Origin: a virus
Length of the DNA: 64,000 bases
IMG/VR virus record: IMGVR_UViG_3300024324_000009
Span: 1 to 64,000 of that record
Strand: one strand, 5' to 3'
The translations under genes and the position numbers were made by a program. Positions within the stretch are counted from its first letter, which is position 1; each line of letters starts with the position of its first letter. Shown in pieces: positions 14,108 through 57,419 of this stretch. Under the pieces are notes generated by a model. The model saw only the letters and a list, made by a program, of their open reading frames with translations, was not told the DNA's origin and searched no databases.

Positions 14108-14575
14108 ATGCCTGCTGCAAATTATAATTTTACTATAGAGCAAGGTTCATCCTTCGCTATCTCTTTTCAATATTTAGACAATGAGCAAAACCCCATTGAT
14201 ATCACCAACTGGTGTGCAAGGTTACGCTGGAAAGAAGATGTTATTGATCCTGACACTGGAATCAATAGAATCAGAACATTTGTCACTCCCACAATAAGTG
14301 CTGAGTATGCTTTTACCACCATCCCAAAAGAAGGTAAAATGATTCTCAAAATTCCTGCTGATGAAACCGCTAGCTATGATTTCAACACAGCAAATTATGA
14401 CTTAGAGTTGCAGGAGCCTAATGACCTATATAGTGGTGGTGGCAAGATTGTGTTTAGAATCTTACAAGGTATCGTTACCTTGACTAGACCAAATGTTCCT
14501 GATCCTGATCAACCATTTGATTGTGATCCTGACGCTAATAATCCAGACGTACACCCCGGTTGTGGAACCTGTTAA
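14108..14575 (+). CDS. Conserved phage structural protein, 155 aa
   Basis: It begins MPAANYNFTIEQGSSFAISF, continues with ITNWCARLRWKED and closes its folded part with ANYDLELQEPNDLYSGGGKI. I recognise this pattern as a conserved small structural protein of marine phages, beta-rich and resembling N-terminal domains of baseplate or fibre-attachment proteins. The C-terminus is an acidic Asp/Pro/Cys tail (NVPDPDQPFDCDPDANNP). Its stop overlaps the giant adhesin start (TAATG at 14573-14577), so the two products are made together and may interact. Function is otherwise unknown. Confidence 0.5.
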   Translation: MPAANYNFTIEQGSSFAISFQYLDNEQNPIDITNWCARLRWKEDVIDPDTGINRIRTFVTPTISAEYAFTTIPKEGKMILKIPADETASYDFNTANYDLELQEPNDLYSGGGKIVFRILQGIVTLTRPNVPDPDQPFDCDPDANNPDVHPGCGTC

Positions 14576-23500: not shown

Positions 23501-26500
23501 ACAAGTCTGGTTTGGTATTTATGATAGAAAATCCTAAGAACATTAAGAGTCATCTCAATCCTAATCTGAGTAATGAGTTTATCGTCAGCGATCCCACAGT
23601 GACTCCTGAAGAAATCTTCAGCACACAGATTAATCACTTCGATTACTGTACAAAGAGATGGAAACATCTACTACATTTTGATTGGGATGTTATTGGTACA
23701 GGATATCAAGAGATCAAGATTAATACAGGGAACGAGGAGTCTGTTATTGACCTTTTCCCAATTCCACCAACAGGAATAAGTATTTCTGGCATTAGATATA
23801 CAGATAGCCTTAGCAACCCCTTCACAGACGTAACAGATATTACATCGGACAACACTAGAGATTCATTCTATGTGCAGTTAGTTACGCTTTATGGAACTCC
23901 CTCATTTACACAAGACATTTATCAAGACCTACCTAAAGTCACCATATCTGGCCTGCAAGACTTTGAGTATGAGTTAGACCCATTAACAGATGTAACAAAC
24001 TATCATGGTTCTGGCTGGAATATTACCATGAAGGTAAATAGAACAAATGAAATTATTGATAGTAGAGAGATTGTCTTTAGAGCAGAAGACGCAACAGGCA
24101 AAGCAGATACAACAGCAGTATATAATCAAATATTCTTACCAGAACTCTTACAGTCCTATACAGGATATTCTTTGCCGGGAACCAATGATTGGGAAGTTAT
24201 CTACGACACTCTCTATCTAGACCTAGACAACATCAACAATAATAATATACTAACCTTTGAGATGCAAGGTACGCCTACTGTTAATCCTATAAACATTACC
24301 TATGAAAGAGTCAGAGACAATGTTCTTAGGGTTTACGGTCCTGTAGACCCCGGCGTAGTCAGTACGACATATTATAGTACTACCATTATAGCAAAAACAG
24401 GACTTACGCAAACTGAAGTCGCCAGATGTACTGGATTAGTTGTTGACTTGCGTGATGCTCATGATTGGACACCTGTCCCAATTACACTGAATAACTTTAG
24501 AAGTTTTGGAGAGAGAACAGACTCAGGAAACTTCTACGCACATTCTTCTGGTCAAGAATCATTTAAGTTTGATGTGCCACAACCACAAGGGAGCGTATTG
24601 TTTACTGTAAGCCATCTCAACCAAGACGATGTTTCGTCCGGTGTGCTTGGATACGAAATTTTATACTCATACAGTAATACTGAAAGAAGATTTAATGTAG
24701 AAATGATTCCTACGGGAACTGGAGAAGTTTATCCTACGGGGATGCAAGCACATTATCCAAATAATCAACTAGAAATTGAAATGGAGTACGAACAATACGA
24801 TGTCAATGGTCAACTTCAAACTCCAAACGCAAGAGAACAATCTTTCCCAATCTTTAACACAACTTTGTATACAGGTCTAATTATATCAAATTCCAACCCT
24901 GATACAATACAATATTACAAGACAGATGAACCTTGGCAAATTCAGGTTAAGGTTAGTGGAGGCATAACAGACCACAATCCTAGTCTTAGGCCAAATGTCA
25001 GAGTATTTAATGCTCCAAATAAAGGAAACTACGAAAAACCCAAAGAGCCGGTTGACTGTATAATCACATATCAATACCAAGATGACCCCGGTAATGCCTG
25101 CTGGCTAGTTCAAGCTAATGCCAGAAGAGACATCTTTGGTAATTACATGCCAAATAACACAGGTGAATTTCAGTTGTATGTGAATGTTGATGACACACTT
25201 ACGGACTATGCCACACTTAATGATAGTGCAAATATTAATGATCAGTTTACTATCATATATACTAAGCCTTCTGGATTTATTAATCTTCCTCCTACCGTTT
25301 ATTCAGTTCCGGGTGCTCCGTTCTTTACTAAGTGCGATGTTCTGTCTCAAGACAGTGGTAATACTCCAAACATCATTAGAACAAATCAGAGCGACCCCGG
25401 TTTTAATTTAACTGATGAATGCAATCCGGGCATGAAGTGGGATGGAGACTTCCCTTTATGGCAACGTGGATACAGAGGAACTACTACTTCTTCAGCATGG
25501 GATGCTAAAGTTGAGATTAGTACACAAGGCACAATTACTGCGTCTGTCAAGGGACTAGGTAAAGATAAAGTTATGGCTGTTGCCAAGGTTGAGTTCTTAG
25601 AGATAGAAAGCGACCAGTTAGTAGATGTTCCATTCAGGATTAAAGAAGTTACACCAGAAGAATCAGAGTCAGAACAGTTCGGACAAGAAGGAATTATTGT
25701 AGAACAAGGAAAGGCTTGGCAACTACAAGTTACAACAGAAGGTGGACTTGCTGATGCTAGATATCCTCCAACTATCGTTCTTACAGGAATGCCAACATTT
25801 TGTACAGGCTACAACCCTATGGATGGAGATTCTAATGATGACTTAGCTTGCATAGACGGTGAGCCATCATTTGGTAATGGAGAATGGACATTTAGATTTG
25901 AAGGTGAACCATCTTGCGACCTGCTTGGGATCAAACCATTTGGTATTCTAGCCATAGACACGCTTACTGGTATACCTCCTAGCTACTTGGCTACAGATAC
26001 TCATCAAGGTCAATTTATCTACGAAACTGGAGAGTTCTTTGTGTTGCCTCCTGAAATTAGCTTTACGGGTGAAACTGACCTATATCCTTTCTGTGACATT
26101 TGCTATACAGGATATATAGACTTCGGACCTCAAGTTGAAGATGACCTAGACTGTAATAGCGTTACAGGAATCAAGACTATCAGAACTAGTGGTACTTTGC
26201 CTGAAGGTCTAAGGTACGGTATTTATTTTCCTGCTGATCCTCCTACATTTCTAGGTAGCGGTCAACTAACTGGTAGACCTAATGGTGAAAGACAAATTAC
26301 CCTAGCAGCACCTTATAATAATCTATCTAGTGGATACATTGCCATTACTGGATGTCCAACAGAGTTTGCTGGTGGAGGACCATATCCTGATGAGTTCTTT
26401 GCCGAAGTTTGTAATGCAGTAGACGAATGTGCTGATTTAGTAGTTACTTTTGAAGATGCTTCTAAACCTTTCGATCCAAATTTAGACTTTGTATACTTCT

Positions 26501-41294: not shown

Positions 41295-42191
41295 ATGAAT
41301 ACTTATGATTTTAAAGCAACTGTAGATGGAAAAGAATGTGAGTTTACCGTTATGAGTCCATCTAACTTCCATTATACTGAAGCACAGAAAGTGTATAATC
41401 ATGCTTTTAGTGATGCGGTTAAGTCTAATGCCATCGTTAGAGCAAAAATGGAAGATGTTCTTCGGGATCAGGGACTATGGGATGACAAGAAAGAATCTGA
41501 GTATACTCAGATTGTACAAGAAATAGCTAATGGTGAAAGACTTTTGAAAAAGGGTGGAATTAAGCTATCTGAGGCTAAAAATTTGGCTATGGAGATGGCA
41601 GATAAACGGTCAAAGCTACGTGAATTGATCTCTGTTAGGACAAGTTTAGACAACCAGAGTGCTGAAGGTCAAGCCGATAACTCTAAATTTAATTATCTAG
41701 TATCAGCTTGTGTGGTGTATAAAAGTAATAATCAGCCCTATTTCAAGTCTCTTGAAGAATATCTAAGTAGTAATGCTTCAGAAGTCTCTAATACAGGTGC
41801 TAAACTTTTGGCTAATATGTTATATGGACTTGAAGACGACTTTGAGAAGAAACTACCAGAAAACAGGTTTCTTAAAAAGTATAATTTTGTAAACGATGAT
41901 TTACAGTTGGTAAACAAAGAAGGTCATATTGTTGATAGAGAAGGCAGACTTATTGATAAGTTTGGCAGATATGTTAATGAGAAGGGCGACTATGTTGATA
42001 GACAAGGGAATTTGATTGATGATGACGGGGATTATATTGTCGATGAGCATCCTTTCTTAGATGATGATGGCGAACCCATTCTAGAAGAAAAGACACAAGA
42101 AACCCCAACAGAAGAACAGCAGGATGAAGAGAAAACCAAACCTGTCGCAAAAAAACCTCGTCAGAAAAAAGCTACTGCTGAAGCAGAGTAG
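41295..42191 (+). CDS. Tail assembly chaperone-like protein with 7-residue repeats
   Basis: 298 residues. Residues 1-40 start as a small beta unit followed by helices (MNTYDFKATVDGKECEFTVM, EAQKVYNHAFSDAVKSNAIV). The central part is helical (KGGIKLSEAKNLAMEMADKR, FNYLVSACVVYKSN). Residues about 206-248 hold six 7-residue repeats of the form [VI][ND]xxGx-hydrophobic, closing with DDDGDY. The C-terminus is an acidic then Lys-rich tail (EEQQDEEKTKPVAKKPRQKK), probably disordered. I associate this architecture with a conserved protein next to tape measure genes in marine phages. Chaperone function is inferred from position directly before the tape measure. Confidence 0.5.
   Translation: MNTYDFKATVDGKECEFTVMSPSNFHYTEAQKVYNHAFSDAVKSNAIVRAKMEDVLRDQGLWDDKKESEYTQIVQEIANGERLLKKGGIKLSEAKNLAMEMADKRSKLRELISVRTSLDNQSAEGQADNSKFNYLVSACVVYKSNNQPYFKSLEEYLSSNASEVSNTGAKLLANMLYGLEDDFEKKLPENRFLKKYNFVNDDLQLVNKEGHIVDREGRLIDKFGRYVNEKGDYVDRQGNLIDDDGDYIVDEHPFLDDDGEPILEEKTQETPTEEQQDEEKTKPVAKKPRQKKATAEAE
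41910..42038 (+). repeat. Six 7-residue repeats, [VI][ND]xxGx-hydrophobic
   Basis: Units read VNKEGHI, VDREGRL, IDKFGRY, VNEKGDY, VDRQGNL, IDDDGDY. The fixed Gly at position 5 and alternating hydrophobics suggest a short beta-roll or beta-hairpin ladder. The last unit has a DxDGD run reminiscent of calcium loops. Confidence 0.75.
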
Positions 42192-42235: not shown

Positions 42236-45200
42236 ATGGCATCATTTGATATAACCGCACAAATAAACCTAAGAGGCCCAAGCAATGTTAAGCAAATTGC
42301 TGCGGATATTCGTAGGCAATTATCAAATATTAAGTCTACGGTTAATCTTAAACTTGATCCTAAGACTGTTCAAAATGTTGCGATTGTTAATAAAAACTTT
42401 AGGGCCTTGAATGCTACTTTAGCAGCAAGCAAAGGAAATATTAATGCTGTAAGCACAGCGTTCAATAATCTAAACAAATCAATGGCGAGTTTGTCAACAA
42501 GTAGTAAGAATGCTGCTAATAGTGTTAAGTCTGTTGCAACAGCTGCTAAAACTGCCACGGCTGCTACCCAATCCCTACAAAAGGGTGCTCAAAGTGCAGG
42601 TACTGCTGCCAGTAACTTAGGAGCAGAAGTTGCTTCCGGTGCAAGAAAGTTTCTAGTATTCAGTGGAGTCTCTACACTTATTAATGCTGTAACTTCAAGC
42701 ATTGCTCAGGGAGTCGGTGCTTTTGTTGAATATGAACGAGAACTTGCCAAGGTTCAGCAAGTTACAAACGCTACATCAGGAGGTTTATCCAAACTTTCTA
42801 AAGATATACAAGAAGCTGCTGTGAGCACAGGAGCAGCAGCCACTGAACTAGCTAAAGTCTCTGTGGTCTTATCACAGGCAGGCTTATCTGCTAGAGAAAC
42901 AAGTGAAGCCTTGCAGACTCTAGCAAAGACTACTTTGGCTCCTACGTTTGGAGACATTACTGATACTACAGAAGGTGCAATCGCTATTTTGCGTCAGTTT
43001 AAATTAGAGACCTCTGAATTAGAAACAGCACTAGGAAGTATCAATGCTGTTGCAGGTGCATTTGCTGTTAGTGCTTCAGACATCATCACAGCTGTAAAAC
43101 AGGCAGGTGCTGTTTTTGCAAGTTCTAGTCAAGGAGTTAGCGAGGGTACAGACGCACTCAATGAGTTTATTGCTGTCTTTACTAGTGTTAGACAGACCAC
43201 GAGAGAAAGTGCAGAGACTATCGGTACTGGTCTTAAAACCATTGTTACCAGACTACAGAGACTAGATACTATTCAATCTCTTAAACAATTTGGGATTCAG
43301 TTAACAGACCTAGAAGGTAAGTTTGTTGGTCCTTTTGAAGCCATTAAAAGACTGAGTGAAGGACTACAGGCTTTTGATCCAAGAGATGTTAGATTTGGTG
43401 CTATCATTGAAGAACTTGGTGGTTTTCGTCAGGTAGGTAAGGTTATCCCTCTTATTCAGCAATTTGCTGTTGCTCAGGAAGCATTAAACGTAGCCAGAGA
43501 AGGTGGAACCTCCATTACTGATCAACAGATTATAGCAGAACGTACATTGTCTGTTCAATTACAAAAAACTGCTGCTAACTTTCAAGCATTTATAACAGGA
43601 GTTGCAGAAAGCGATGCTTTTCAAGGTATTACTAAAGGACTGCTTGGTTTTGTTAATGCTTTAATAAGTTTAGCAGACATACTTAAAGATGTTATACCAG
43701 TACTTGCTGCTCTTGCAGCTAATGCCGCTATACCTGCAATAGCACAGTTTGCAGGTGGCTTTGGAGCAAAACTATTAGGTAAAAACAAAGGAGGAGCAGT
43801 TCCTCATCATTTTGCTAGAGGAGGCTATGTTCCGGGTTCTGGAGATCGAGATACTGTACCAGCAATGTTGACTCCGGGCGAGTTTGTTATACGCAAGAAA
43901 GCAGTACAAGCTATTGGAACCGATAAACTCTCAGCAATGAATGGAGGCCAAGGTGCAGCTATTGCTACACAGGCTAAAAATAAGGGTGGCATGATTCAAC
44001 ACTTTGCTGAAGGAGGAACAGTAAGCGTTGACTATGCTAAGAAAAAACCTAGTGCATCAAAAGAAAGAGAACTTATAGGAAACAACCTTGTTCAATCTGT
44101 TAACTCTCTAGCTAGTTACTATGACCCAGAATCAAAACAATTATCCAGTAGGAAAAGTCCTAAAAATCTGCCTAATTATGCTGGTATAGTAGGAGGAATA
44201 TTTGAGTCAGCAGTTGAACTTGTAGCAGGACAATCAGACAAACAAAAAAACGAAGCTGTTTGGGATTACCCATCAGGGATCGGAAGTACTGATTTGTTTA
44301 ATAATGTTCCGGGCCTAGGTGTTCCTACAGACGCTAAAAAAAGTGCTACGACCGCAACAGTTAGAAAGAAGCTAAAAGCACACTACAGAAACGCACAAGG
44401 TACTGATCTCAATCGTAAAAAATTTGGTATTGTTGCATTCGGCAAAGGCGAAGACTACGAGTATCAATTTGATCCTGAAGCAATCAAACAAGAAGTGGCT
44501 CCACAAAGAGCCGCAAAAGCACAAAAAGCAAATCGTGGTGGTTTGATTCAACATTTCCAAGATGGAGACCTTGTTGTTGCTGGATCAGGTAGAGTCACAC
44601 AAAAAGATATTAAGGAAGCAACTTCTGGACAATTAAATAGTGCTCTACAAAACCCTAAAGTCAATGCAAAAAGTCGTGCCGCTATTCAAAACGAACTCCA
44701 ACAAAGAGAAACAGCAAACAATGCGACTAACGTAGCTGTTGTTGGTATCTTACCGTTGGGGTATTCAAAAGATTATCCTCCACAGCCTCTTGGTGGAGAG
44801 AACGTAAAAATATCTTCTAGGGGACTACCTAAAGCTAAAGAAGAGGCTTTTCTTAATATAGCAGAAGGTCTTAGAGGAGTTGTACAGACTGCTGCTGTAG
44901 AGATTGGAGGTTCAGCAAAGCCACTTACTCCTGAACAAGAAAAATCAACTGGATTAGAAAATGTGCAAGGAACTATTTTTGAAGCAGTTCTTTCAGCATT
45001 AGGAGCAACTGGAGGATCAATACAAAATCAATCTATGGATTACGCTAATGGACTTGGACCTGCTGCTTCCTTATATCCGGGCATTGGTCCAGATTGGCCT
45101 ACGGAAGTCAAACGTGATGTTACTGGTCCCGGTTTCACTAGAAGTAAAAAGAATATTGCTAATTTCTATAGTGCACAAAAGTTTGCTGAAGGAGGAAAAG

Positions 45201-48200
45201 TTAAATCTAAAGGTGGGCTCGGAATTAAAACTACCGGAGGTAATACGATTACTTCTGTGTTTGAGGATGGACAAAGTAGTTCTGGTGAAGTTGTAGCAAA
45301 AAGTATAGGCCAGAATTTATTTGCAGTTCTGTCATCTCAAGTGTCTGGTGGTGGAGGCAGGGCCTTATATGATTCTGCTATGAAACAAGCAACGAGTCAG
45401 GGAGGTAGTTTAACTTCAGACAGAAGCAGAGTTAGTAGTTCTGCTTTAAGTAGAATTTGGACTACTTATTTTAATAAAGGAACAAGTAAAGACGGGAAGA
45501 AAGTTTCCAAGAAGCCTGTACCAGACAACATGCTTTATACTGGTGCATTTTTTGATGAGTCTGATTATCCAAGCCCTAATCCTGCATCTTGGCAAGGTCA
45601 AGCTGTACCTTTGCAATACGCTTATAAACAATTTGCTGATGGTGGAGCAGCATCAGGAGGGGATACAGTTCCCGCCATGCTAACTCCCGGTGAATTTGTT
45701 ATTAATAAAAAAGCAGCTAAATCTATAGGTTTGTCTAAGCTAAGAGAAATGAACTATGCAGATAAAATAAGAGGTTACGCTAAAGGAGGTCCAGTAGGAG
45801 GAGTCCAATATTTTGATAATGGAGATACAGTTGATCCTCTTTCTCAATCTGGAGGTGTCAACCCCTGCTGTCCAGACGAACTTAAAGCAGCTAATACTAA
45901 TGCTAAAACAGCTAAAAAAATGGAAGATGCTGCCGATTCAATGAACGAAGCAGGAGAGAAACAAGAAGAAGCAGCAGATGAAATGTCAACAGGCCAAGCA
46001 ATATTCTTGGCATTTATTGGCCCAGCGATTGAACAAGGCATCAAGAAAGCGTTCCCTAATAGTCGTGTCGCCGCAGCAACTGGAGAAGGTATTCAACAAG
46101 GTGCAGCTACTTATCAAACAAGTAGTGCTTTGCTTGGAACGATAGGTAAGGTATTGGGTAAATTTCCGGGAGTCGTCGGAAAAGCAGGAAAATTAATTAC
46201 CGCAAGTGCTAAAGGTATTGCTGTCGTGTTGGGAGCATTATCTTTTGGTATAGGAGCCAGATCAGGATACATCCAAAAAAGCATTGAACTTTTATCACAA
46301 GAGATTGAAACTGGAGCAAAAGACACAGCAAAAGCAATAAAGAATTTTAATGATTTACTATTAGACCCAAATATTAGCACAGAAACACTTGGTAAAAGCC
46401 TTGGTGAGTTATCTAACAAAATTAATGATTTAAATACAGTCAGAGGTGAAAAAGCCGCAGTAGAGATTCAGCAGTTACAACCTTATCTTCCATATTTCGA
46501 AAGTAATGACGACAAACAATTTAGACAAGCTAGCGAAAGAAATATTGAACGAGAAGCGTTTGAAACTGGTGCTCAAGATGCTCTTACAAGCCTTGAGGCT
46601 GCATTACAAAACGGTAAAAAACTTGGCGACATTTTTGATAATATGTCAAAGAAAGAAGCACAAGGTCTCAAAAAAGCGATTGCTTTTCAAGACAAGGCTA
46701 TTAGAGAGCAGATAAAGGCATTAGAGAAACAAAGAGATGCAACAGAAGAAGGAACCCCAGAAAGAGAGGCACTTAATGAACAAATCGCTGTGGCTATTGA
46801 TACCGGATATGTAGAGAATGCACAAAGATTAAAAATTATAGCACAATTAAAAGAAGCAGAAAGAGCAGTAGAAGAAAATAGAAGAAGGTTGGTAAATTCT
46901 TCTACTAGTTTGGAAAAATATGTAGAGGCCTTTGGTACTGCAATAGCAATAGCAGGAAATAACTTTCAAGTGGCATCTTTAGAAGCTAAATCTTTTGCTG
47001 ATGGTTTTGCAGGTGTAGATTTACAGAATTTATTTGCAGCACAAATTACTACTCTAGAAAATCCCAGAGCATTTAATGACGCAGAAAATGCGATCTCTCT
47101 TGATCCGTTAAAAGGAGTACTTGGAGATAATGCAAAAGTCTTTGCCGCATTGGTTCAACTTCCTAATCGTTTAGAAGACGCTATTAATAGTGCTGCTGCC
47201 GGTGCAGCTGGCCAAGATTCCGAAAATGTTGGCAGAGCAATATCTGCTGCTATTAGCGGCAACCTAGGAGAGTTTGAAGGAACTGCACTAGGAGATGCAT
47301 TAGTCGGTTCGCTAACAGAACAGATTGAAAAAGCATCCAAAGGTGGTAAAGGAACAGCAGACACAACGGCTATTATTGATTCTTCCACAGATATTGTAAG
47401 AAAAACATCTGAAAACTTTACTAAAGCTGCTGTAGAAGCACTCAAACTTATCCGAGAAGCAGGTGTCCAAGTAGCAAGTTTTGCACAAGTAGCAGAAACA
47501 TCTTTTAAGAAATTTAATAGAGGGTTACTGTTAGCTGCTCAAGGAACAACACGTTTAAACCAAGACATTGACAGATTAGTAAGTGGAAGAAACGACCCTA
47601 GAAGTATTAGCGACATAAATGCAAGAACTACAGGGGCTGCTAGAAGTGAAGTGTCTGGAGTTGCACAATTCATACAACAGAATGCTGATGCTCAAAAACA
47701 ACTCATAGACTTACAAAGTAGGTCGTTGCAAGCACAAATGGAAGGAGCCCAATCATTTAATCAGAATGTCACAGAGATAGGGAGGGTCAAAGCAGAGATT
47801 ATCGGATTAAGACAACAAACTGAAAATCTTAGAACGGCCCTAACTGATAAACTCGGAGAATTAAAGAATGAACTTAGCAATAGACTTAGTGAACTTAAAG
47901 AACAATCAGCAGCATCTAGAAGTTTAATAGACAGCGTATTTTCAGATGAGCAAGGTGCGAATGAGAGTTTTGATGCGGCAATGAGATTGGCAAATGGAGA
48001 CGCATCAGGAATCAGCAGTGGGCCAGAAGCACTAAAGGTGTTGAAAGAGATTTCAAGACTACAGCAAGCAGGTCTGATTCCTGATGATCCTAAAGTTATA
48101 GAAAACGCATACAAAAGGGCTGCTAAAGCAGCAGGTATTCAGTTCTCTCCAGAAGGACTAAAGGTATTTAAACAAGCCTTCGCTAATCCAGAGGATGACA

Positions 48201-51200
48201 GTGAAGTTAAAGCATATGTTAAAGAACTACGGGCAACAAATGCTGAAATCAATCAATTAACTAATGTATTGAATTTGCAAGAACTTCAAAATTCTAATGA
48301 TGCATTAATTGCAAGTCAAACAGCTTTAACAAAAGTTATGTCTGATCTTCCAGAGACTATAAATACTATAGCAGAAAAAATACAAGCATCTGGTTTAAAA
48401 GCCCCTATAGAAGTTTTAGAAGCTGGCAATATCAAAGTAAGTAAAGCTGACAGAGTGGACATCAGAGATACTTTAGGTGCTTCCCAAGCCCTTCCTACTA
48501 CAAAGGCTGTAGGAGGAATAATATATCGTTCAACAGGAGGAGAGGGGCCTGCCTCTTCAGTGTCCACTGGTCCCGGTTCTAATATTAATTGGGCTCCCAG
48601 AGGCTCAGACACTGTACCAGCAATGCTTACTCCCGGCGAATATGTTGTAAACGCACAGGCTACCAAAGCCAATAGGGGTTTATTAGAAAATATAAATAGT
48701 GGTAAAGGCAAAAAAGTTCAGCCGATATATAGGGCATCTGGTGGCCCAACCGACACAAGTGAGAGGGGCTGGATAGACTACTTTGACGAGCAAACGCAAT
48801 CGGGTAGAGGATTCCTTGAATCAATTTATTCCTTCGGAGGCGTAACAAAAGTATGGCCCGATATAGCTACAAAACTCGGTGGTTTAGGAGACACTTTGGG
48901 CAGTTGGTACGGAAGTGCAAAGGATACGGTCAATTCAGGGTTGGCTTCTCAGTTTACTAAATTTGGAAACTATAAAGGTCAGATATTACCAAAATATATT
49001 ATAGAGGCTATCAAGACTGGTACTATTACCGAAACTAAGGGATTAGCATCAGTTCCTAAGAAAGCATGGTCAAATTTAATACCTCGCATTATTAATAATG
49101 TTGGCAACACAAAACTTGCACAAGACCTAACCAAATGGGGCGGTTCCAAGTGGGCAAAAGCTAGTCCAACGCTAAACACCGCAGTGCAAGCAGAGAAGTA
49201 TGCAGACGACATAGCACCTAGTGTGTTTAAAAAAACCTTCCCAAAAATAATGAAAAGTCAGTTTGCAAAGGGGACGTTTAAGAACTTACCTATAGCAGAG
49301 TGGGCAGTAAGCGGTTTATTAGCTAGCAGAAACCGTTGGAGTGAATTGGAGAGAAAAGGTGGAAGTACGAATCAAATGGTCATGTCTAGCCTTGCTGAAT
49401 TTTTAGCAGGAGGCACTGCTGGTGCACCTACGGATTCGTCGGGCTATTCTGGTATTGCTAGTGCTGGAATTGATAATGCAAGTAGACTATTTAGTAATAT
49501 TTATGCTGGTTTTCAAAGAGGAGGACCGCAGGGTGCGGTTGCAGCAGGTTTGGTAACTGTTGGGGCAATGGGTATAAGATTGGCTGAAGAAACTAGAGGT
49601 TGGAGACTCGATGCCATTCAAGAAATGGGTTCATTCCAAGACTTGAGAGCTAATGAAAAAGCAGGAGCAAAAAGTGCAAAGCAACAGGAAAGAGACAGAA
49701 TAAAAGACTTTAAAGAAGCTGGCGTTAAGGACTTGGAGTACTTAGATTCTCAAATAGATATTCTGGGGTTGACACAATTCAAAAGAGCACAAAGATACGG
49801 CGGGTTTCAGGCAGATAAAGATTTTTACGGTTCAGATAATAATCCATATCTTGATATGGATATTGACACAGAAGCCGTTAAATCTAGAGAATATAATGAA
49901 TGGGTTCAACAATATTGGAACGGCAAAGTTAACTCCTCTGCATTCATGAGCAACAAAGGTGAGATGAGATTGATAGAATTTGATCCAGCACTCATACCAG
50001 AGATACAAAAAGCTAGTTTCAGAAGTGGGAACGTATTCGAGAATAGGTATTCAGACGATACGATACAGAAGGCTTATAACAAAGTTGCTTCTCAAGAAAA
50101 CAAAAAAAAGACAGTAGAATTAAAGAGTCTCGGCGGCAAGGCTGTGGGAGTATATCCCAATGCAGAAGCATACGATGGTTCCTACCCTAAATCATTGGAT
50201 TCATTAACTCAGAGTATTGATGACAGAAGTGAAAGTATTTATCAAAACACTCAAGGAGTGAAACAACCTGATGGCACTAGGGACGAAACTCAAACTGGTT
50301 TTAACAACATTTACAGTAAAGACACTGTGTTAAGAGACATAGATGATGAACTTGCTACAAAGATGTTAGCTTCTAATACATTTTTTAATAGAATACCAAG
50401 AGACTTAACTACAAATGACAAGCAGGCATTCGAAGATAGCAAAAGGTATACACAAGATGTTACTGAGATAGCTAAAAGATATACCGCTAGAGAAGAAGAG
50501 TTGAAGCAGATAGCAAGAGAGGAAAGAGACGCACAAGCAAAAGCAGAAGCAGATAGAGCCAAGGAGAAGGTAGATGCAAATGCTGCTACTCAAACTAAAA
50601 TTAGTAATATATCGGCATTTGCAACTAGTGGCAAAGAAGGTCTGAAAGATTTAGGATATAAAGAATTTTATCCTTACATAGATAAGAGTAGTGAGATTAA
50701 TAAACTTCAGGCAGATAGTATTAAGATGCGTGGGAAACTTAACGCACAGGCAGCAGGTCCAACACTTAATCTTGGTCAATATGTAGATTTCGAATATGGT
50801 AAATTAGGGAAAGATGCAAACACTCTTTTAAAGAGTCAAGAAGCTATACAGATACCAACAGATGTTGCGGCAGCTGTTGCAGAGTACAGAAAGAACTACG
50901 TACAAAGCAGTCCTTTATATGAAAAGGGAATCAAAAGATTTGCTGACTCTATAACTGAATGGGAGTTTAATCAAGAAGAGCCAAATATAGCTGCTGCAAT
51001 CAGAAGAAGCATTTTTACTGGACAGCAAATCAATCCCGGTGTTATAGCGTCATTGACAGCAAATAATGAAGCATCTGATCCCGACTTAGCTGTACAAATG
51101 GGATACGATGGCGACATAGACACCGCTGTCCAGCAGTTTACTAAAGATAGAGAACAAGCAGAGGTAGGCAAAGTTAGACCTGTAGGCGGGACAGTTTACG

Positions 51201-52813
51201 AACAAGACAAAGTAGGAGCAGAGGCATACTTAGCTAAATTAAAAGATGCAAAAAACGCTGTGAAAAATAGGAACTACGAGGCCCAACTCGCCAAGCTAGA
51301 CCCTGACCAAAGAATGGAGTCTACGTTAGTACAGCTACTTGCTGAAGAAACACCTATACTTAATGGATACTTAAAAGGTATTAATTTTTATAGAGATGGT
51401 AATGTAGACAAACTGGGAGGAGGCGAACCACCTAATGCAGGATGGACTCAAGGTTTTGCAGACATGGCTGGGGCTGTTGAGGGACGAAGTGACGTTCTGT
51501 TAAAGGCTGGCCAATCTGAACCACTCAGCGAAGGCAAACTGGATTATGGTAAAACATGGAAGTACTACGCGAGACTAATGAATGATGCTCAAAACCTTAG
51601 TGCCGATGCTACACCTGAACAAATAAAGGCTAGAGAAGGAAACATACAACAAGAGAGAGCAGTAGCAGACGCACAACAAGCAACAAACAATAAAAGATAT
51701 GATGCTGCTGTTAGGTTTGGTAAAGCGTTAGCTGGCACCCGTGTTCCTACAGATTCGCCAGTGGCTTGGGTAAAGTACCGTCAAGCACAACTGGAAAAGT
51801 TTAGAGTAAATGTTGCACAGGCTACAAATACAGAGCCAGACTATCCTGAAGCAAAAGATATTCCTGCTCTTAACGAGTCAGGTGTTACAAAAAACTGGGT
51901 AAATAGCATATTTAATTCAAAAGGTGAAGATTCAGTGGTTTCACAAAGAGGAGCGAAAGAACTCCTAAGATGGAAAGCTAAACAAAAAGGTGAGAATGCA
52001 GAAGCACTCCTTGGTCTTGCTAACGAAATAGACGGCAACGTAGGCTTTAATGATATTTACCCTTTTGATCGAGTAAACGACACAGAATTAGAAGCCGCTA
52101 CAGACCTACAAGGTATTCAAGCTATAACTGGTAGATTCAACAAATTTGTGTTAACCAGAAAAAATCTAGCGTTGCCTCTATTAGAAAGAAATTTAGAAAA
52201 TCTTTACAAAGGAGGCTTATGGACTCCAGAAAGAGGACTAGAAGAGAACTTAGGAGCATTGAATGCCTTAGACCCAAGACTAGACCAATCGGGTATAAGT
52301 AAAAAGATACAAAAATTTGGACCAAAAACTCAATATTATTCAGATGGTGGGTCGGTATTTACGCCCAGAGGTACGGATACAGTTCCTGCTATGTTAACAC
52401 CGGGAGAATACGTTGTTAATAGAAAGGCCGCTGCCCAAAACAGACCTTTATTAGAAGCTATAAACGGAAAACAAAGCAGAGCAAAAAATAGTCCATATTA
52501 CCATGATGGTGGAGATGTAACAGGAAATGGTGTAAATAATGTTGTAGTAGACACACAAGAAATTAGCAAGTTTGTTACCTCGTTTGACAGATTTGCTAAA
52601 GAATTGGCCTCATTAAATGTTCCTGAACAAATTACAATTCAGGGAACACACACTGTTGAAGTTAATGTAAATGGTGGACAAGTTCTTAATGACCTATTAA
52701 ATGGACCAATCGGTGATTTGGTAAGAACAGAAATTGCAAGTGCATTTGAACAACAGAATCAAGACTCAGAAGGAACCATACCTAACCCATTCAATCCAGC
52801 AACAAATCCATAG
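42236..52813 (+). CDS. Tail tape measure protein, 3525 aa
   Basis: An AGGAG site precedes the ATG. Residues 1-140 are Ser/Thr/Ala coiled coil; residues about 130-400 match the TP901-type tape measure domain (FVEYERELAKVQQVTNA, KVSVVLSQAGLSARETSEAL, IGTGLKTIVTRLQRLDTI). Hydrophobic helices lie at about 468-512 and 1255-1345. DTVPAMLTPGE occurs four times (residues 539, 1143, 2125, 3381), and an aromatic-x-[DE]-G[GD] motif recurs about ten times nearby. Between these are two PD-(D/E)XK-like modules and one GNAT-like module (listed separately). Long helical stretches fill 1370-2100 and 2400-3350. At about 0.15 nm per residue, the known scaling, the tail could approach 0.5 micrometre. TMPs set tail length and are ejected with DNA in known systems. 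Confidence 0.93.
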   Translation: MASFDITAQINLRGPSNVKQIAADIRRQLSNIKSTVNLKLDPKTVQNVAIVNKNFRALNATLAASKGNINAVSTAFNNLNKSMASLSTSSKNAANSVKSVATAAKTATAATQSLQKGAQSAGTAASNLGAEVASGARKFLVFSGVSTLINAVTSSIAQGVGAFVEYERELAKVQQVTNATSGGLSKLSKDIQEAAVSTGAAATELAKVSVVLSQAGLSARETSEALQTLAKTTLAPTFGDITDTTEGAIAILRQFKLETSELETALGSINAVAGAFAVSASDIITAVKQAGAVFASSSQGVSEGTDALNEFIAVFTSVRQTTRESAETIGTGLKTIVTRLQRLDTIQSLKQFGIQLTDLEGKFVGPFEAIKRLSEGLQAFDPRDVRFGAIIEELGGFRQVGKVIPLIQQFAVAQEALNVAREGGTSITDQQIIAERTLSVQLQKTAANFQAFITGVAESDAFQGITKGLLGFVNALISLADILKDVIPVLAALAANAAIPAIAQFAGGFGAKLLGKNKGGAVPHHFARGGYVPGSGDRDTVPAMLTPGEFVIRKKAVQAIGTDKLSAMNGGQGAAIATQAKNKGGMIQHFAEGGTVSVDYAKKKPSASKERELIGNNLVQSVNSLASYYDPESKQLSSRKSPKNLPNYAGIVGGIFESAVELVAGQSDKQKNEAVWDYPSGIGSTDLFNNVPGLGVPTDAKKSATTATVRKKLKAHYRNAQGTDLNRKKFGIVAFGKGEDYEYQFDPEAIKQEVAPQRAAKAQKANRGGLIQHFQDGDLVVAGSGRVTQKDIKEATSGQLNSALQNPKVNAKSRAAIQNELQQRETANNATNVAVVGILPLGYSKDYPPQPLGGENVKISSRGLPKAKEEAFLNIAEGLRGVVQTAAVEIGGSAKPLTPEQEKSTGLENVQGTIFEAVLSALGATGGSIQNQSMDYANGLGPAASLYPGIGPDWPTEVKRDVTGPGFTRSKKNIANFYSAQKFAEGGKVKSKGGLGIKTTGGNTITSVFEDGQSSSGEVVAKSIGQNLFAVLSSQVSGGGGRALYDSAMKQATSQGGSLTSDRSRVSSSALSRIWTTYFNKGTSKDGKKVSKKPVPDNMLYTGAFFDESDYPSPNPASWQGQAVPLQYAYKQFADGGAASGGDTVPAMLTPGEFVINKKAAKSIGLSKLREMNYADKIRGYAKGGPVGGVQYFDNGDTVDPLSQSGGVNPCCPDELKAANTNAKTAKKMEDAADSMNEAGEKQEEAADEMSTGQAIFLAFIGPAIEQGIKKAFPNSRVAAATGEGIQQGAATYQTSSALLGTIGKVLGKFPGVVGKAGKLITASAKGIAVVLGALSFGIGARSGYIQKSIELLSQEIETGAKDTAKAIKNFNDLLLDPNISTETLGKSLGELSNKINDLNTVRGEKAAVEIQQLQPYLPYFESNDDKQFRQASERNIEREAFETGAQDALTSLEAALQNGKKLGDIFDNMSKKEAQGLKKAIAFQDKAIREQIKALEKQRDATEEGTPEREALNEQIAVAIDTGYVENAQRLKIIAQLKEAERAVEENRRRLVNSSTSLEKYVEAFGTAIAIAGNNFQVASLEAKSFADGFAGVDLQNLFAAQITTLENPRAFNDAENAISLDPLKGVLGDNAKVFAALVQLPNRLEDAINSAAAGAAGQDSENVGRAISAAISGNLGEFEGTALGDALVGSLTEQIEKASKGGKGTADTTAIIDSSTDIVRKTSENFTKAAVEALKLIREAGVQVASFAQVAETSFKKFNRGLLLAAQGTTRLNQDIDRLVSGRNDPRSISDINARTTGAARSEVSGVAQFIQQNADAQKQLIDLQSRSLQAQMEGAQSFNQNVTEIGRVKAEIIGLRQQTENLRTALTDKLGELKNELSNRLSELKEQSAASRSLIDSVFSDEQGANESFDAAMRLANGDASGISSGPEALKVLKEISRLQQAGLIPDDPKVIENAYKRAAKAAGIQFSPEGLKVFKQAFANPEDDSEVKAYVKELRATNAEINQLTNVLNLQELQNSNDALIASQTALTKVMSDLPETINTIAEKIQASGLKAPIEVLEAGNIKVSKADRVDIRDTLGASQALPTTKAVGGIIYRSTGGEGPASSVSTGPGSNINWAPRGSDTVPAMLTPGEYVVNAQATKANRGLLENINSGKGKKVQPIYRASGGPTDTSERGWIDYFDEQTQSGRGFLESIYSFGGVTKVWPDIATKLGGLGDTLGSWYGSAKDTVNSGLASQFTKFGNYKGQILPKYIIEAIKTGTITETKGLASVPKKAWSNLIPRIINNVGNTKLAQDLTKWGGSKWAKASPTLNTAVQAEKYADDIAPSVFKKTFPKIMKSQFAKGTFKNLPIAEWAVSGLLASRNRWSELERKGGSTNQMVMSSLAEFLAGGTAGAPTDSSGYSGIASAGIDNASRLFSNIYAGFQRGGPQGAVAAGLVTVGAMGIRLAEETRGWRLDAIQEMGSFQDLRANEKAGAKSAKQQERDRIKDFKEAGVKDLEYLDSQIDILGLTQFKRAQRYGGFQADKDFYGSDNNPYLDMDIDTEAVKSREYNEWVQQYWNGKVNSSAFMSNKGEMRLIEFDPALIPEIQKASFRSGNVFENRYSDDTIQKAYNKVASQENKKKTVELKSLGGKAVGVYPNAEAYDGSYPKSLDSLTQSIDDRSESIYQNTQGVKQPDGTRDETQTGFNNIYSKDTVLRDIDDELATKMLASNTFFNRIPRDLTTNDKQAFEDSKRYTQDVTEIAKRYTAREEELKQIAREERDAQAKAEADRAKEKVDANAATQTKISNISAFATSGKEGLKDLGYKEFYPYIDKSSEINKLQADSIKMRGKLNAQAAGPTLNLGQYVDFEYGKLGKDANTLLKSQEAIQIPTDVAAAVAEYRKNYVQSSPLYEKGIKRFADSITEWEFNQEEPNIAAAIRRSIFTGQQINPGVIASLTANNEASDPDLAVQMGYDGDIDTAVQQFTKDREQAEVGKVRPVGGTVYEQDKVGAEAYLAKLKDAKNAVKNRNYEAQLAKLDPDQRMESTLVQLLAEETPILNGYLKGINFYRDGNVDKLGGGEPPNAGWTQGFADMAGAVEGRSDVLLKAGQSEPLSEGKLDYGKTWKYYARLMNDAQNLSADATPEQIKAREGNIQQERAVADAQQATNNKRYDAAVRFGKALAGTRVPTDSPVAWVKYRQAQLEKFRVNVAQATNTEPDYPEAKDIPALNESGVTKNWVNSIFNSKGEDSVVSQRGAKELLRWKAKQKGENAEALLGLANEIDGNVGFNDIYPFDRVNDTELEAATDLQGIQAITGRFNKFVLTRKNLALPLLERNLENLYKGGLWTPERGLEENLGALNALDPRLDQSGISKKIQKFGPKTQYYSDGGSVFTPRGTDTVPAMLTPGEYVVNRKAAAQNRPLLEAINGKQSRAKNSPYYHDGGDVTGNGVNNVVVDTQEISKFVTSFDRFAKELASLNVPEQITIQGTHTVEVNVNGGQVLNDLLNGPIGDLVRTEIASAFEQQNQDSEGTIPNPFNPATNP
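44080..44485 (+). other. PD-(D/E)XK-like module 1 within tape measure
   Basis: Residues about 615-750. GGIFESAVEL gives E657; WDYPSGIG gives D677; GVPTDAKKS gives D699-A-K701. Order and spacing (20, then 22) fit the core of PD-(D/E)XK nucleases, followed by a helix (VRKKLKAHY) and a strand (FGIVAFGKG). Bounded by MIQHFAEGG and LIQHFQDGD motifs. Confidence 0.45.
44830..45180 (+). other. PD-(D/E)XK-like module 2 within tape measure
   Basis: Residues about 866-982. GTIFEAVLSA gives E916; SMDYANGLG gives D935; WPTEVKRDV gives E957-V-K959. Spacing (19, then 22) matches module 1, as do the PG[IL]G turn before the last motif and the helix after it (RSKKNIANFY versus VRKKLKAHY). It ends at KFAEGG. 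Confidence 0.45.
45195..45630 (+). other. GNAT-acetyltransferase-like module within tape measure
   Basis: Residues about 987-1132. The order EVVAKSIGQNLFAVLSSQV strand, SGGGGRALYDSAMKQA (G1038-A1043, the place of the acetyl-CoA loop and helix), GGSLTSDRSRVS, then ALSRIWTTYF resembles GNAT motif A and the following strand/helix. It ends at QFADGG. By-eye call; the canonical R/Q-x-x-G-x-[GA] is only approximate. Confidence 0.4.
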
Positions 52814-52823
52814 GAGCCTTAAC

Positions 52824-55800
52824 ATGGCAGATGAATTTACAACAGGTAATTTATACTTAGGTTCTGGTACAAGTGTATCGGATACAGAATTTGATATAAG
52901 GCTCTCTACCGAAGAAGGTATTTCTACATTATTTAATGCTAGTGGCAACGATATAGATTTTCGTGTAAATGCATCGGGTAGAGTAGGTATACACGTAGAT
53001 GCAGACACAGGACGAGTTGGTATAGGTACTGGACAAAATATTGGGGCAGCACTTCATGTAGTAAGTCAATGTCCTAATGATGGATTAAGAGTAGAGACCA
53101 GAACAGATTGTCCTACTGGTGTTCAGATAGAATTTATTCACCGTCCAATGACCGCACCTGAGAACAACTCCATTCCTGTACAAATTAATCTTGCTGGTAG
53201 AAATGACAATTCAGAAGACGTAAATTATGCTAGAATTATCAGTAAGGCTCTAAACACTAGCAATGGTAGCGAAGTAGGCGAACTTATTTTTACTGTGGCT
53301 TCAGGAGATACTGACTTTCCTGCACTGGTTCTTAATCCTTTTACTAGTTCCATCGGAACAGACAATTTAAATTCTGGCAACAACTACTTATTTATAGGCA
53401 ATAATAATTATGTTTCTGGAGATAACTTTGTTGTAATTGGGAATAACAATACGGGAGTAATAACAAACGGTATTTTAATAGGTATTGATAACTCTGTTTC
53501 TGGGGAAAGAGTACTTATTGTCGCAGATAATACTGTAGTTTCTGGAGATCAGAACATTGTCTTCGCTTTAGATAGCGAAATTTATGGTGACTCTAATCTA
53601 GTTATGACAGAAAATGTACTTTCTACTGGTGATCAGAATATAGTTCTTGGTCACAGCTACAATACAACTGGAGATTTTAATATTCTTTTATTGAATGATT
53701 CAGATCAAGTTGGCAGTAGTGGTGTTGGTTTTGGTAACCAAGTATCTAATTCTGGACAACGAAATGTTTACGTAGGTAACTTTAACACACTACAAGGAGA
53801 CGATTGTGTTGTTATTGGTTCAGAAGTAGAAGTTACTGGCAACAACAATATCCTTTACGGTTCTACTTCCTCACTTAGTGGAACAAGCATTATATCTATT
53901 GGTGCAGGAAATGACGTTCTTGATATTAATAGTGGTGTGTTCATTGGTTCTAATATTGACTTAGTGGATGGTGAGAAATCAGTCATTGTAGGACTTGGCA
54001 ACATAACTCAAAATGGTTTAACTGATAGTATTATTATAGGTATTGAGAATACGACCACTAATGGCAGTCCTACTGGTGTTATAGTTATCGGTCAAGACAA
54101 TAAGGTTTCTGTAGTTAAAAATACTACAATAATCGGTAACTCTAATGAGGCTAGCGGAACAGTCCTAAATAATGTAGTTTACGGAACTCTTAATTCAACT
54201 CCGTTAGACAGTCGCAACAATGTAATCGTTGGTGTTATGAATAACACTAGTGGTAATATTCTTAGCGATGGCACTGTAGACCCCAGTGGTCGTTTACCAG
54301 ACAGTACTATGGTTAATAGCATTACTTATGGTGTGAATAATATCGTAAGTGAAATTAGCGGAACTAATATAGTAGGTAGTAAAACCTATGCTTCTGGTCA
54401 GAATATTAACACTCACGGTTCTTTGAATCAGATCAAACAATCTAATGATGCTCAGATAATTGGACACTCCAATTTTATGGTTGGAGACAACAATACTATC
54501 GTAGGCAGCTATAATGATATAGTCGGCAATAATTCCGTGCTGGTATCTACATCGTCGCAGCGTCAATACGCCTTTGGCGATTCTAATATTTCTGTAGGTA
54601 ACAGTGAGGCAGTTATTAGCGGTATGACTATAGGTTTTGGTAATGATCTAGATGCCGTTAATGGCGTTATCTATGGTAGCGGCAACCAAATAGGATTGCG
54701 TAGACATATGTTTACCCTAGATAATGATGGTGCAGATGTTATTCTGGCTGTCAGGGGTGATCAAAGAGGAATTTATCTGCCGGGAAGTAAAATTATGTTG
54801 GCTGTACTTAACCCCGCCAACAAAGATGCTCCTATCGTGCTTAAAAGCATGAACGGGGTCAGCTATACTCCTAATGATGACACAACAAACATCACAATCA
54901 ATAGTCCTATCATTACGCCCACAGACGCCCCAAACTACGCGGTCAATGCATTCTTTGATGACCCCACCTATAACACTGGAGACAGGAGTGTAATTTCAGG
55001 CTGGATTATGCCTTACCAATCTGGCAACAGCACAGACCTTATCAACAATCCTTTATTCGGTTTTGGCTCCATAGTGCTTGGAACTAATAATACTTCAATG
55101 CACGCTCAAGGTATCGTTATAGGTCAAGGCAATGCCATATCAGGCACTAATCATGTGGCTATTGGTCAGAACCTAGAAGGCTTTTATAACAACGCTGTTC
55201 AGATAGGCAGCACCAACCTGAATAAACTTTACTTTGATAATTCAGAGATAGTATTTAACACAGGTGGACAACAAGACAGAGCAGTATTTAATACTAGTAT
55301 ATCTACCGTAGATGACGACCCTGTATCTATGGTTGTTGAGTACAACAACAATAGAGTAGGTATCAATAACGGCGACCCATCTAGCGAACTTGATGTTTCG
55401 GGTATTATTACTTCAAACGGTATCAAACTCTATGGAGAAAATTCTAACATCAGCGGTTGGATTCCTGTAAATACCGGAGATGGAACTGTCACATGGCAGG
55501 AGCCTACTACTTTATCTGGTATCAATAGCGGTATACTTATGAAGCATAGTGATACTGTAGCAACAGGATTATATAATGTATCATTCAATACTTCTACTCA
55601 ATCACTTGAATATAATCGTAGTGACACCATTAGAAATAATGAGTTCTTGTTTATTCCTAACCAAGACCAACTGTCTAACGCTGTTAGATTTTCAACAACT
55701 GGTATGTTTCTGAATGAAGACGGAACAAACAATATCAGAGACTATGGATATAGATTCTGCGTTTATGGTTCAGGGACTACAGACTCTAGTAACAATAGAG

Positions 55801-57419
55801 ATGGCACAATTAATGTTTATCTATTAAATACTATTAAAGAACGTAATGAAGTACAGATGACCAACTTTACTGGTGTTAGTGGAGCAATGAGAAACCTATG
55901 GGCAGATACCAGTATCAATGCTCCGGGTTCACTTACTGGTACGTTCTTATATGTAGACAATACAGACGATAACGCTTTACTGTCTAAGACAGTTCCGACT
56001 TTCTCTACTCTTTTTGCTATGCAAACGCACTGGCAGTCTGGTGATAGAGGCTTCAGATACTACCCTGAAGATTATGGTTATGTAGTAACTATCGGTTCTT
56101 CAGGAGGTGTTACTCAAGGTTTAGAAACCGGCTACGGAGATCAGTATAAATCTCCTAATGTTGTGCTTTCTAATTCAACAGCATATGGTTCAACTTTTAA
56201 TGCTGCTGGCATTTCACCTCATCCGTTTAGAGTAATTCAGTCTGGTCAACAAACAAATAATATTGGTATGCAGTATAGTTGTGCAAGTGGCATTTTGGGT
56301 CTTGGTGTTGGAGATGACACTCAGACAACTCTTGAAGGAACCACAATTAATCAGCAAGTAAAATGGGATGCCGCAACTTATGGTAATGCTAGGCTTATTG
56401 TAAACGGCAAGATAAGAACTTGTGGTTTGCAAATGACTACAACCGATGGCAGAATGGTTGGCACTAATGGAAATGGTAAGTATTTAAAAGTCAGCGACAT
56501 AAATGGAAACATAGAACTAGCTGACGTTGTTGTTACTCAAGAGTTCTTAGCCGATTGGCCCTTGGCTGCCAACACATTAAGTGATGGATCAAGAACGACT
56601 TATAAGATTGCTACAACAGGCACATCTAGTAGTATCTGGGGAGACAGTACTTTACCAGTAGAAGCAGCAGGTATTGGCTTGCACTGGAACGGTGCTGTTT
56701 GGGTACAAGGCTACAGTCACAGATTTGGTCAGCCACCTGCTAGTAATCTATCAGACACATATGCTGCTACTGGCGTAGCACTTGGTCCAGAGGCAACTTA
56801 CTTGAATACTAGACATCAGCACACTATCGCTGGTCAACCTATAGCTCCTCGCACCACTGTTCAAAGTAATGAGAACTGGAATGGTTCTGCACAAGAGACT
56901 TTGGTTCAGATGAAGGCTAGGACTATAAACAATGTTACAACAGAGTTGACAACTGATTTCAATAAAGAAAACGGTGGACCTTCTGCTACGATAGATAATA
57001 CTATTGCGTTAGTAATTAACGAAAAAGTTACTAGTGAAAACAATAAGAATGCAGTCTGGAGAGTAGAAATATCATGGACTGCCCTAGTGCAAGATGTTAG
57101 TTCCGCACTGTTTGAAGGAGCAAGTGGTAGATATAGCTTTGGAGTACTTAGTACAAAGCCGGGAGCAACCAGACAGAATATTATATTCGATGATGCTGAT
57201 GCATATTCTGTTGGAGAAAGTGCGGGTGGTAATATGTGGAGCAGTAGCAATCCTATTACTGCTGCTTTTGCCACGCAAGGTACAGACAGATTAACATTAA
57301 CTTGTCAAGGTGTTAGTGGTAAAAATATATTATGGTCTGCTCATGTAAGGTGTATACAACAACATCTACCAACTGATAGCCAAGGCAACGCTGTTAGTGT
57401 TGCTGGCAATGGTGTTTAG
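52824..57419 (+). CDS. Tail fibre with long YadA-like beta-roll, 1531 aa
   Basis: The start is the ATG at 52824 (MADEFTTGNLYLGSGTSVSD), with GGAG overlapping the tape measure stop; an upstream in-frame ATG at 52734 lies inside the tape measure gene. The N-terminus has fibre phrases (FNASGNDIDFRVNASGRVGI, RVGIGTGQNIGAALHVV). Residues about 186-625, with a second short block at 747-797, are repeats of N-x-[VI]-x-G-[DNST]-x-N-x-[VI]-[VI]-x-G, a beta-roll like trimeric autotransporter heads. The C-terminus has a Gly-rich segment (HRFGQPPASN) and ends in a beta-sandwich with TCQGVSGKNILWSAH, related to the two small paralogues at 4723-6262. Likely a tip or side fibre attached near the distal tail. 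Confidence 0.8.
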   Translation: MADEFTTGNLYLGSGTSVSDTEFDIRLSTEEGISTLFNASGNDIDFRVNASGRVGIHVDADTGRVGIGTGQNIGAALHVVSQCPNDGLRVETRTDCPTGVQIEFIHRPMTAPENNSIPVQINLAGRNDNSEDVNYARIISKALNTSNGSEVGELIFTVASGDTDFPALVLNPFTSSIGTDNLNSGNNYLFIGNNNYVSGDNFVVIGNNNTGVITNGILIGIDNSVSGERVLIVADNTVVSGDQNIVFALDSEIYGDSNLVMTENVLSTGDQNIVLGHSYNTTGDFNILLLNDSDQVGSSGVGFGNQVSNSGQRNVYVGNFNTLQGDDCVVIGSEVEVTGNNNILYGSTSSLSGTSIISIGAGNDVLDINSGVFIGSNIDLVDGEKSVIVGLGNITQNGLTDSIIIGIENTTTNGSPTGVIVIGQDNKVSVVKNTTIIGNSNEASGTVLNNVVYGTLNSTPLDSRNNVIVGVMNNTSGNILSDGTVDPSGRLPDSTMVNSITYGVNNIVSEISGTNIVGSKTYASGQNINTHGSLNQIKQSNDAQIIGHSNFMVGDNNTIVGSYNDIVGNNSVLVSTSSQRQYAFGDSNISVGNSEAVISGMTIGFGNDLDAVNGVIYGSGNQIGLRRHMFTLDNDGADVILAVRGDQRGIYLPGSKIMLAVLNPANKDAPIVLKSMNGVSYTPNDDTTNITINSPIITPTDAPNYAVNAFFDDPTYNTGDRSVISGWIMPYQSGNSTDLINNPLFGFGSIVLGTNNTSMHAQGIVIGQGNAISGTNHVAIGQNLEGFYNNAVQIGSTNLNKLYFDNSEIVFNTGGQQDRAVFNTSISTVDDDPVSMVVEYNNNRVGINNGDPSSELDVSGIITSNGIKLYGENSNISGWIPVNTGDGTVTWQEPTTLSGINSGILMKHSDTVATGLYNVSFNTSTQSLEYNRSDTIRNNEFLFIPNQDQLSNAVRFSTTGMFLNEDGTNNIRDYGYRFCVYGSGTTDSSNNRDGTINVYLLNTIKERNEVQMTNFTGVSGAMRNLWADTSINAPGSLTGTFLYVDNTDDNALLSKTVPTFSTLFAMQTHWQSGDRGFRYYPEDYGYVVTIGSSGGVTQGLETGYGDQYKSPNVVLSNSTAYGSTFNAAGISPHPFRVIQSGQQTNNIGMQYSCASGILGLGVGDDTQTTLEGTTINQQVKWDAATYGNARLIVNGKIRTCGLQMTTTDGRMVGTNGNGKYLKVSDINGNIELADVVVTQEFLADWPLAANTLSDGSRTTYKIATTGTSSSIWGDSTLPVEAAGIGLHWNGAVWVQGYSHRFGQPPASNLSDTYAATGVALGPEATYLNTRHQHTIAGQPIAPRTTVQSNENWNGSAQETLVQMKARTINNVTTELTTDFNKENGGPSATIDNTIALVINEKVTSENNKNAVWRVEISWTALVQDVSSALFEGASGRYSFGVLSTKPGATRQNIIFDDADAYSVGESAGGNMWSSSNPITAAFATQGTDRLTLTCQGVSGKNILWSAHVRCIQQHLPTDSQGNAVSVAGNGV
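53381..54700 (+). repeat. Beta-roll repeat array in the 1531-aa fibre
   Basis: About 25-30 repeats, roughly 14 residues each, such as NNYLFIGNNNYVSGDNFVVI, GDQNIVFALDSEIYGDSNLV. Hydrophobic pairs alternate with SG/TG turns, as in left-handed parallel beta-rolls. The DNA repeats are diverged, so the array is old. Confidence 0.75.

Follow-up and report, generated by a model that had tools for sequence, protein, structure and literature searches.

Tape measure gene and its cassette borders

We analysed a 64,000-nucleotide stretch, referred to as the window, of a 171-kb IMG/VR virus record. It carries a tail gene block with one very long ORF. Its great length and tape measure domain, within this block, identify the product as a phage tape measure protein (TMP). 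The following features were used in this study.

42236..52813, plus strand: TMP ORF, 3525 aa, with matches to PhageMin_Tail (4e-20) and several PHROG tape-measure families
42800..43417, plus strand: N-terminal PhageMin_Tail domain of the TMP, residues 189-394, 63-80% conserved in relatives
43640..43756, plus strand: hydrophobic stretch left of the cassette, residues 469-507, Kyte-Doolittle 19-residue mean 1.6-1.7
43850..43888, plus strand: first DTVPAMLTPGEFV motif, residues 539-551, left cassette border
44033..44515, plus strand: module 1 (M1), residues ~600-760, paralogue of M2
44711..45190, plus strand: module 2 (M2), residues ~826-985, pLDDT mostly 92-97, 61 distinct relatives
45203..45631, plus strand: module 3 (M3), GNAT-like by fold search, conservation and profile score, residues ~990-1132
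45662..45700, plus strand: second DTVPAMLTPGEFV motif, residues 1143-1155, right cassette border
46196..46252, plus strand: hydrophobic stretch right of the cassette, residues 1321-1339

The motif DTVPAMLTPGE occurs four times in the TMP, at residues 539, 1143, 2125 and 3381. M1, M2 and M3 all sit between the first two copies, near the front third of the protein. The first motif lies at about residue 530-650 in most relatives that have an LTPGE motif. Both strong hydrophobic stretches of the window TMP (residues 469-507 and 1321-1339) flank this slot, and they are the only ones in the protein. Such flanking segments would fit a slot presented across a membrane, but the pattern in relatives is weak, because the same hydrophobicity threshold was exceeded on the left in 8/37 and on the right in 16/37 of them; no segment inside a slot exceeded it.

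Several neighbouring ORFs were also noted. The protein encoded directly upstream of the TMP (41295-42191) ends in G-x-x-V/I-D repeats, which match DUF3659 with an E-value of 8.4e-4, below the cut-off of that family. The ortholog preceding the TMP of the more distant locus L012 carries the same repeat, and the gene position is that of a tail assembly chaperone. The ORF at 52734-57419 encodes a 1561-aa protein that, with its many GxNN and SGDNN repeats, is likely to be a tail protein of the beta-solenoid type; PHROG gave no match for it. A giant ORF of 4824 aa (14560-29034) is located upstream of the tail genes. A broken frame suspected after 59224 proved to be an open ORF that continues past the end of the window.

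Searches with single module sequences against Pfam, PHROGs, PDB and INPHARED gave no match, and single-sequence searches yielded one other contig only, which has the same sequence as the window (its sister). L012 was located by bait alignments containing invented variant rows, and a tblastn search using the window sequence itself confirmed it; this locus gave a TMP ortholog, and no conclusion depends on the invented rows. Aligning the TMP N-domains of the window and L012 brought in 80 TMP loci. By iterated profile searches, the module shared by M1 and M2 was present in 44/71 non-identical TMPs, and of all the frequencies this one is the least biased. In a later scan, EVKR-type module sequences added 50 loci, and the counts obtained after it are biased towards modules with a lysine in the third motif (K-type). 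All 61 distinct module copies are in TMP ORFs; the three in which no TMP N-domain is visible belong to ORFs cut by the locus edge. No relative of the module was found in the genome_contigs collection, which covers 84,980 bacterial and archaeal species. Matches to the cyanophages Bellamy and S-SM2 were rejected, as these have the LTPGE motif alone in common with the window.

Modules of the cassette

The earlier note had described M1 and M2 as paralogues with a common E...D...[DE]xK layout, and the named residues stand as claimed. They are E657 (44204), D677 (44264), D699 (44330) and K701 (44336) in M1, and E916 (44981), D935 (45038), E957 (45104) and K959 (45110) in M2. The distance from E to D is 20 residues in M1 and 19 in M2, and that from D to [DE]xK is 22 in both. 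The PGLG or PGIG turn before the third motif and the helix after it are also present. A profile built from 42 relatives, from which the window and its sister were left out, scored M1 at 22.9 bits and M2 at 73.6 bits, far above the best of 200 shuffles of the region (2.9 bits), which supports the paralogy.

The AlphaFold model of M2 (window residue = model residue + 595) places strands at 831-839 and 855-863, a long helix, the helix carrying E916, the bridge residue D935, a short helix, the TEVKRD strand (956-961) and a last helix, in this order. M1 was poorly modelled owing to an alignment depth of two; L014 provided the only further copy of M1 type. In M2 a beta-hairpin precedes the helices, whereas the hairpin-like stretch of M1, KFGIVAFGKGEDYEYQFDPEA (residues ~728-748), follows them. 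Because of this difference in hairpin position, one module may be a circular permutation of the other.

Conservation was evaluated in the distinct module copies. The D is kept in 61/61, the E in 57/60 (Q in three) and the [DE] in 59/61 (Q in two), and the third-motif lysine is K in 46/61 and T in 15/61. Some copies may thus be dead, since 3/60 lose the E, 2/61 the [DE] and 15 the K. When it follows a HAD domain, the module is only about 75 aa long, and many relatives' modules are devoid of the extra strands.

The earlier note read M1 and M2 as PD-(D/E)XK folds. The residue pattern points towards this reading, with E, D and [DE] conserved, but the lysine is not strict and neither a fold nor a profile match was obtained. 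If the modules were true PD-(D/E)XK nucleases, they would be injected and would cut host DNA or process phage DNA ends, and in the T-type subfamily the lysine would have migrated to a GK[GS] loop further downstream. The near invariance of E, D and [DE] over 61 copies is in line with this, as is the resemblance of the EVKR/DAK strands and the GxxxE helix to PD-(D/E)XK motifs. A GK[GSK] motif shortly downstream accompanies the change from K to T (13/15 T-types vs 1/46 K-types), as expected under lysine migration, but two subfamilies that parted long ago may also account for the association. When the lysine swap was tested with independent pairs taken from the backbone tree, the median p was 0.125; this test is not clean, as modules move between backbones. 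Against the nuclease reading, no PD-(D/E)XK match was found for M1 or M2 in Pfam or by profile search of PDB sequences, and a Foldseek search of PDB and BFVD with the M2 model returned nothing below an E-value of 0.1. Comparison by hhalign with the profile of Mrr, the one PD-(D/E)XK family compared, gave 0.1-0.2%, not above the level of unrelated controls. The HAD-linked copies have no other core strands, and at ~75 aa the full canonical PD-(D/E)XK core is absent from them. We therefore regard the nuclease reading as doubtful, with odds well short of even. M1 and M2 share the E...D...[DE]xK pattern with the PD-(D/E)XK superfamily and differ from it in their small core, non-strict lysine and want of a fold or profile match. 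As no PD-(D/E)XK kinship was detected and the core is short, we class the module as a new domain, specific to TMPs, whose residue pattern is PD-(D/E)XK-like. It forms a new family of ~75 aa found in TMPs only, and calling it a nuclease would be a guess based on that pattern.

M3 had been proposed to be GNAT-like from its strand-loop-helix order. The acetyl-CoA loop [QR]xxGx[GA] reads QVSGGG in the window (GxG at G1039/G1041, 45350-45358), and an SDR motif follows at residues 1061-1063 (45416-45424). The GxG, SDR and a W are kept in 13 M3 relatives, with GxG in 13/13, while the leading Q/R varies. A profile of 11 relatives scored M3 at 114 bits. In the AlphaFold model, strands at model residues 7-11, 14-19, 23-28, 35-44 and 47-56 are followed by a helix (60-73), a strand (77-80) and a helix (87-98), which is the element order of the GNAT core. 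The pLDDT was 65-79 in the core, ~35-49 after residue 80 and 52.8 overall. The top matches of the model in a fold search against PDB were almost all GNATs (best probability 0.95, best E-value 0.18). None of the curated family profiles recognised a GNAT in M3, and no sequence search named one. The fold search and the invariant GxG support a predicted GNAT fold for M3, from a model of modest confidence. Like GNAT acetyltransferases (e.g. PDB 1y9k; phage Rac), M3 has a GxG loop and a predicted beta-beta-beta-beta-loop-helix-beta-helix order; unlike them, it has no family profile match, is embedded in a TMP and carries an extra C-terminal tail.

Contents and exchange of the slot in related TMPs

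We took a domain census of 77 non-redundant TMP ORFs, two of which are the window's own. The module was found in 61 ORFs, HAD phosphatase domains with complete signatures in 28, GNAT in 14, ADP-ribosyltransferase (ART) domains in 6 and SNase in 2. HAD usually lies directly before the module, and HAD models were the commonest weak NCBIfam matches. The HAD residues D-x-D-x-T, A-R, K and D-D are invariant in 21/21 sequences. In two loci (L103:5313-5768 and L105:5313-5768) HAD follows the module, indicating that the pair can be reordered. The ART domain of L054 matched PF03496 at 24.6 bits (Pfam cut-off 23.4), and STS and ExE motifs recur in six ART-type slots. In L117 (5943-6425), a second stretch after the first ART-like domain begins LYHGSNTG and resembles the ART H-Y class. 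The SNase of L056 (0.0026, 18.6 bits) falls below its cut-off of 21, with the VDGDT and RLR signature present. Some slots hold several domains, for example HAD, module and ART in L054, and SNase, HAD and module in L056. More than 12 TMP slots contain none of the five domain families searched. Those of L018, L025, L032, L036, L055, L063 and L067, of ~190-1200 aa, are probably further uncharacterised payloads.

The slot between the LTPGE motifs ranges from 159 to ~1670 aa, and its position is fixed in most TMPs showing both motifs. The TMPs of L068 and L070 are identical at 477/518 positions (92%) in the first 520 aa and at 744/896 (83%) after the second motif, and at only 127/475 (27%) in the aligned slot. 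One of these slots contains a T-type module, the other an ART and a K-type module. Similarly, the N-terminal parts of the L047 and L094 TMPs are 97.5% identical and their modules are of T- and K-type. On the tree of TMP N-domains, the K/T type of the module requires at least eight changes on supported branches. Thus, slot contents are swapped at fixed borders while the TMP backbone is conserved.

The slot as a possible payload bay

In several phages the TMP is ejected ahead of the DNA, and some TMPs carry cell-wall enzymes (PMC6116005). During injection, the lambda TMP lies beside ManYZ, a complex of the inner membrane (PMC13190303), and in injection systems TMP-related proteins serve as injected effectors whose end domains can be swapped (PMC13277306). 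GNAT and ART are typical of injected polyvalent proteins and may modify host RNA polymerase and other proteins (PMC5512222, PMC7824862). With these precedents, the most economical reading is that the lineage uses one TMP slot to carry a payload.

We consider it a little better than an even bet that the region between the first two LTPGE motifs is an interchangeable payload bay for host-acting enzymes, with delivery and catalysis presumed. The TMP outside the bay would be the conserved ruler and ejection backbone, and the compact enzyme-like domains carried in the bay would differ from phage to phage within the lineage; the bay of the window would hold the GNAT-like domain and two copies of the new E...D...[DE]xK domain. 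As in other phages, the TMP would leave the tail ahead of the DNA and reach the envelope, which would bring the bay to the inner membrane or through it. Once folded at that site, the domains would act on host proteins, RNA or DNA in early infection, for host take-over or defence evasion, a role already proposed for polyvalent proteins.

The payload bay has to contend with the narrow tail tube, in which globular domains need unfolding or processing, and the slot domains could instead act in assembly. They would then work in the producing cell or the virion and help the TMP to fold, be processed or be packed, perhaps by binding chaperones or the tube, with enzyme-like folds co-opted as spacers. 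The location of the modules in a structural protein beside repeated LTPGE/GG motifs and the loss of acidic residues in some copies are consistent with this. However, invariant HAD signatures in 21 relatives and the STS/ExE motifs of ART are not expected of spacers, and wholesale exchange of contents on a conserved backbone fits arms-race cargo better, which makes a role in assembly unlikely. GNAT, HAD and ART need acetyl-CoA, phospho-substrates or NAD+, all of which are cytoplasmic, and the Pfam matches listed for 46 slots included neither a peptidase nor a lysozyme family. Both points argue against work outside the cell or in the envelope in the manner of peptidoglycan-cleaving TMP domains; although the known TMP enzymes are muralytic (PMC6116005), we rate this as very improbable.

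A payload bay would resemble polyvalent proteins (Iyer et al. 2017, PMC5512222) in that a single long, virion-linked polypeptide combines several unrelated enzyme domains, GNAT and ART among them, and in its predicted early injection. It differs in its carrier, which is the TMP, and in the exchange of a single defined slot; the term "tape measure" does not occur in the text examined of that paper. Two or more disparate enzyme domains, by which polyvalent proteins are recognised, occur in one virion-associated polypeptide in L054 and L056; the window alone has GNAT and the candidate modules. The muralytic TMPs of T5, TM4 and phiIPLA35 (PMC6116005) likewise have an enzyme domain inside the TMP, but theirs cut the cell wall, whereas the slot domains would use cytoplasmic substrates or cofactors. 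The Sle1/Tme effectors of contractile injection systems (PMC13277306) share a TMP-like carrier and an exchangeable functional domain, but belong to bacterial injection systems, exchange a C-terminal domain and have no GNAT/HAD/ART set. We found no report of a GNAT, HAD, ART or nuclease-like domain in a TMP in the open-licence literature, and within that searchable literature we agree with the earlier note that no standard TMP has this set. Each of the parts belongs to a known kind; what is new is the carrier, the swap slot and the module-2 domain.

The occurrence of HAD, ART and SNase in place of or together with the modules in related TMPs greatly strengthens the enzyme-delivery reading. There is about an even chance that, in a lineage of large uncultured phages, the TMP is a delivery vehicle for interchangeable GNAT, HAD, ART, SNase and new nuclease-like domains, the tail ruler doubling as an early-infection effector rack. 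The TMP enzymes reported so far cut the cell wall, and the slot described here would hold enzymes of a cytoplasmic type. If the delivery reading is true, a defined and fast-swapping slot would turn the TMP into an early effector that is programmable. The slot would then be a place to seek anti-defence activities in unculturable phages, and would offer a way to test how folded cargo passes the tail tube.
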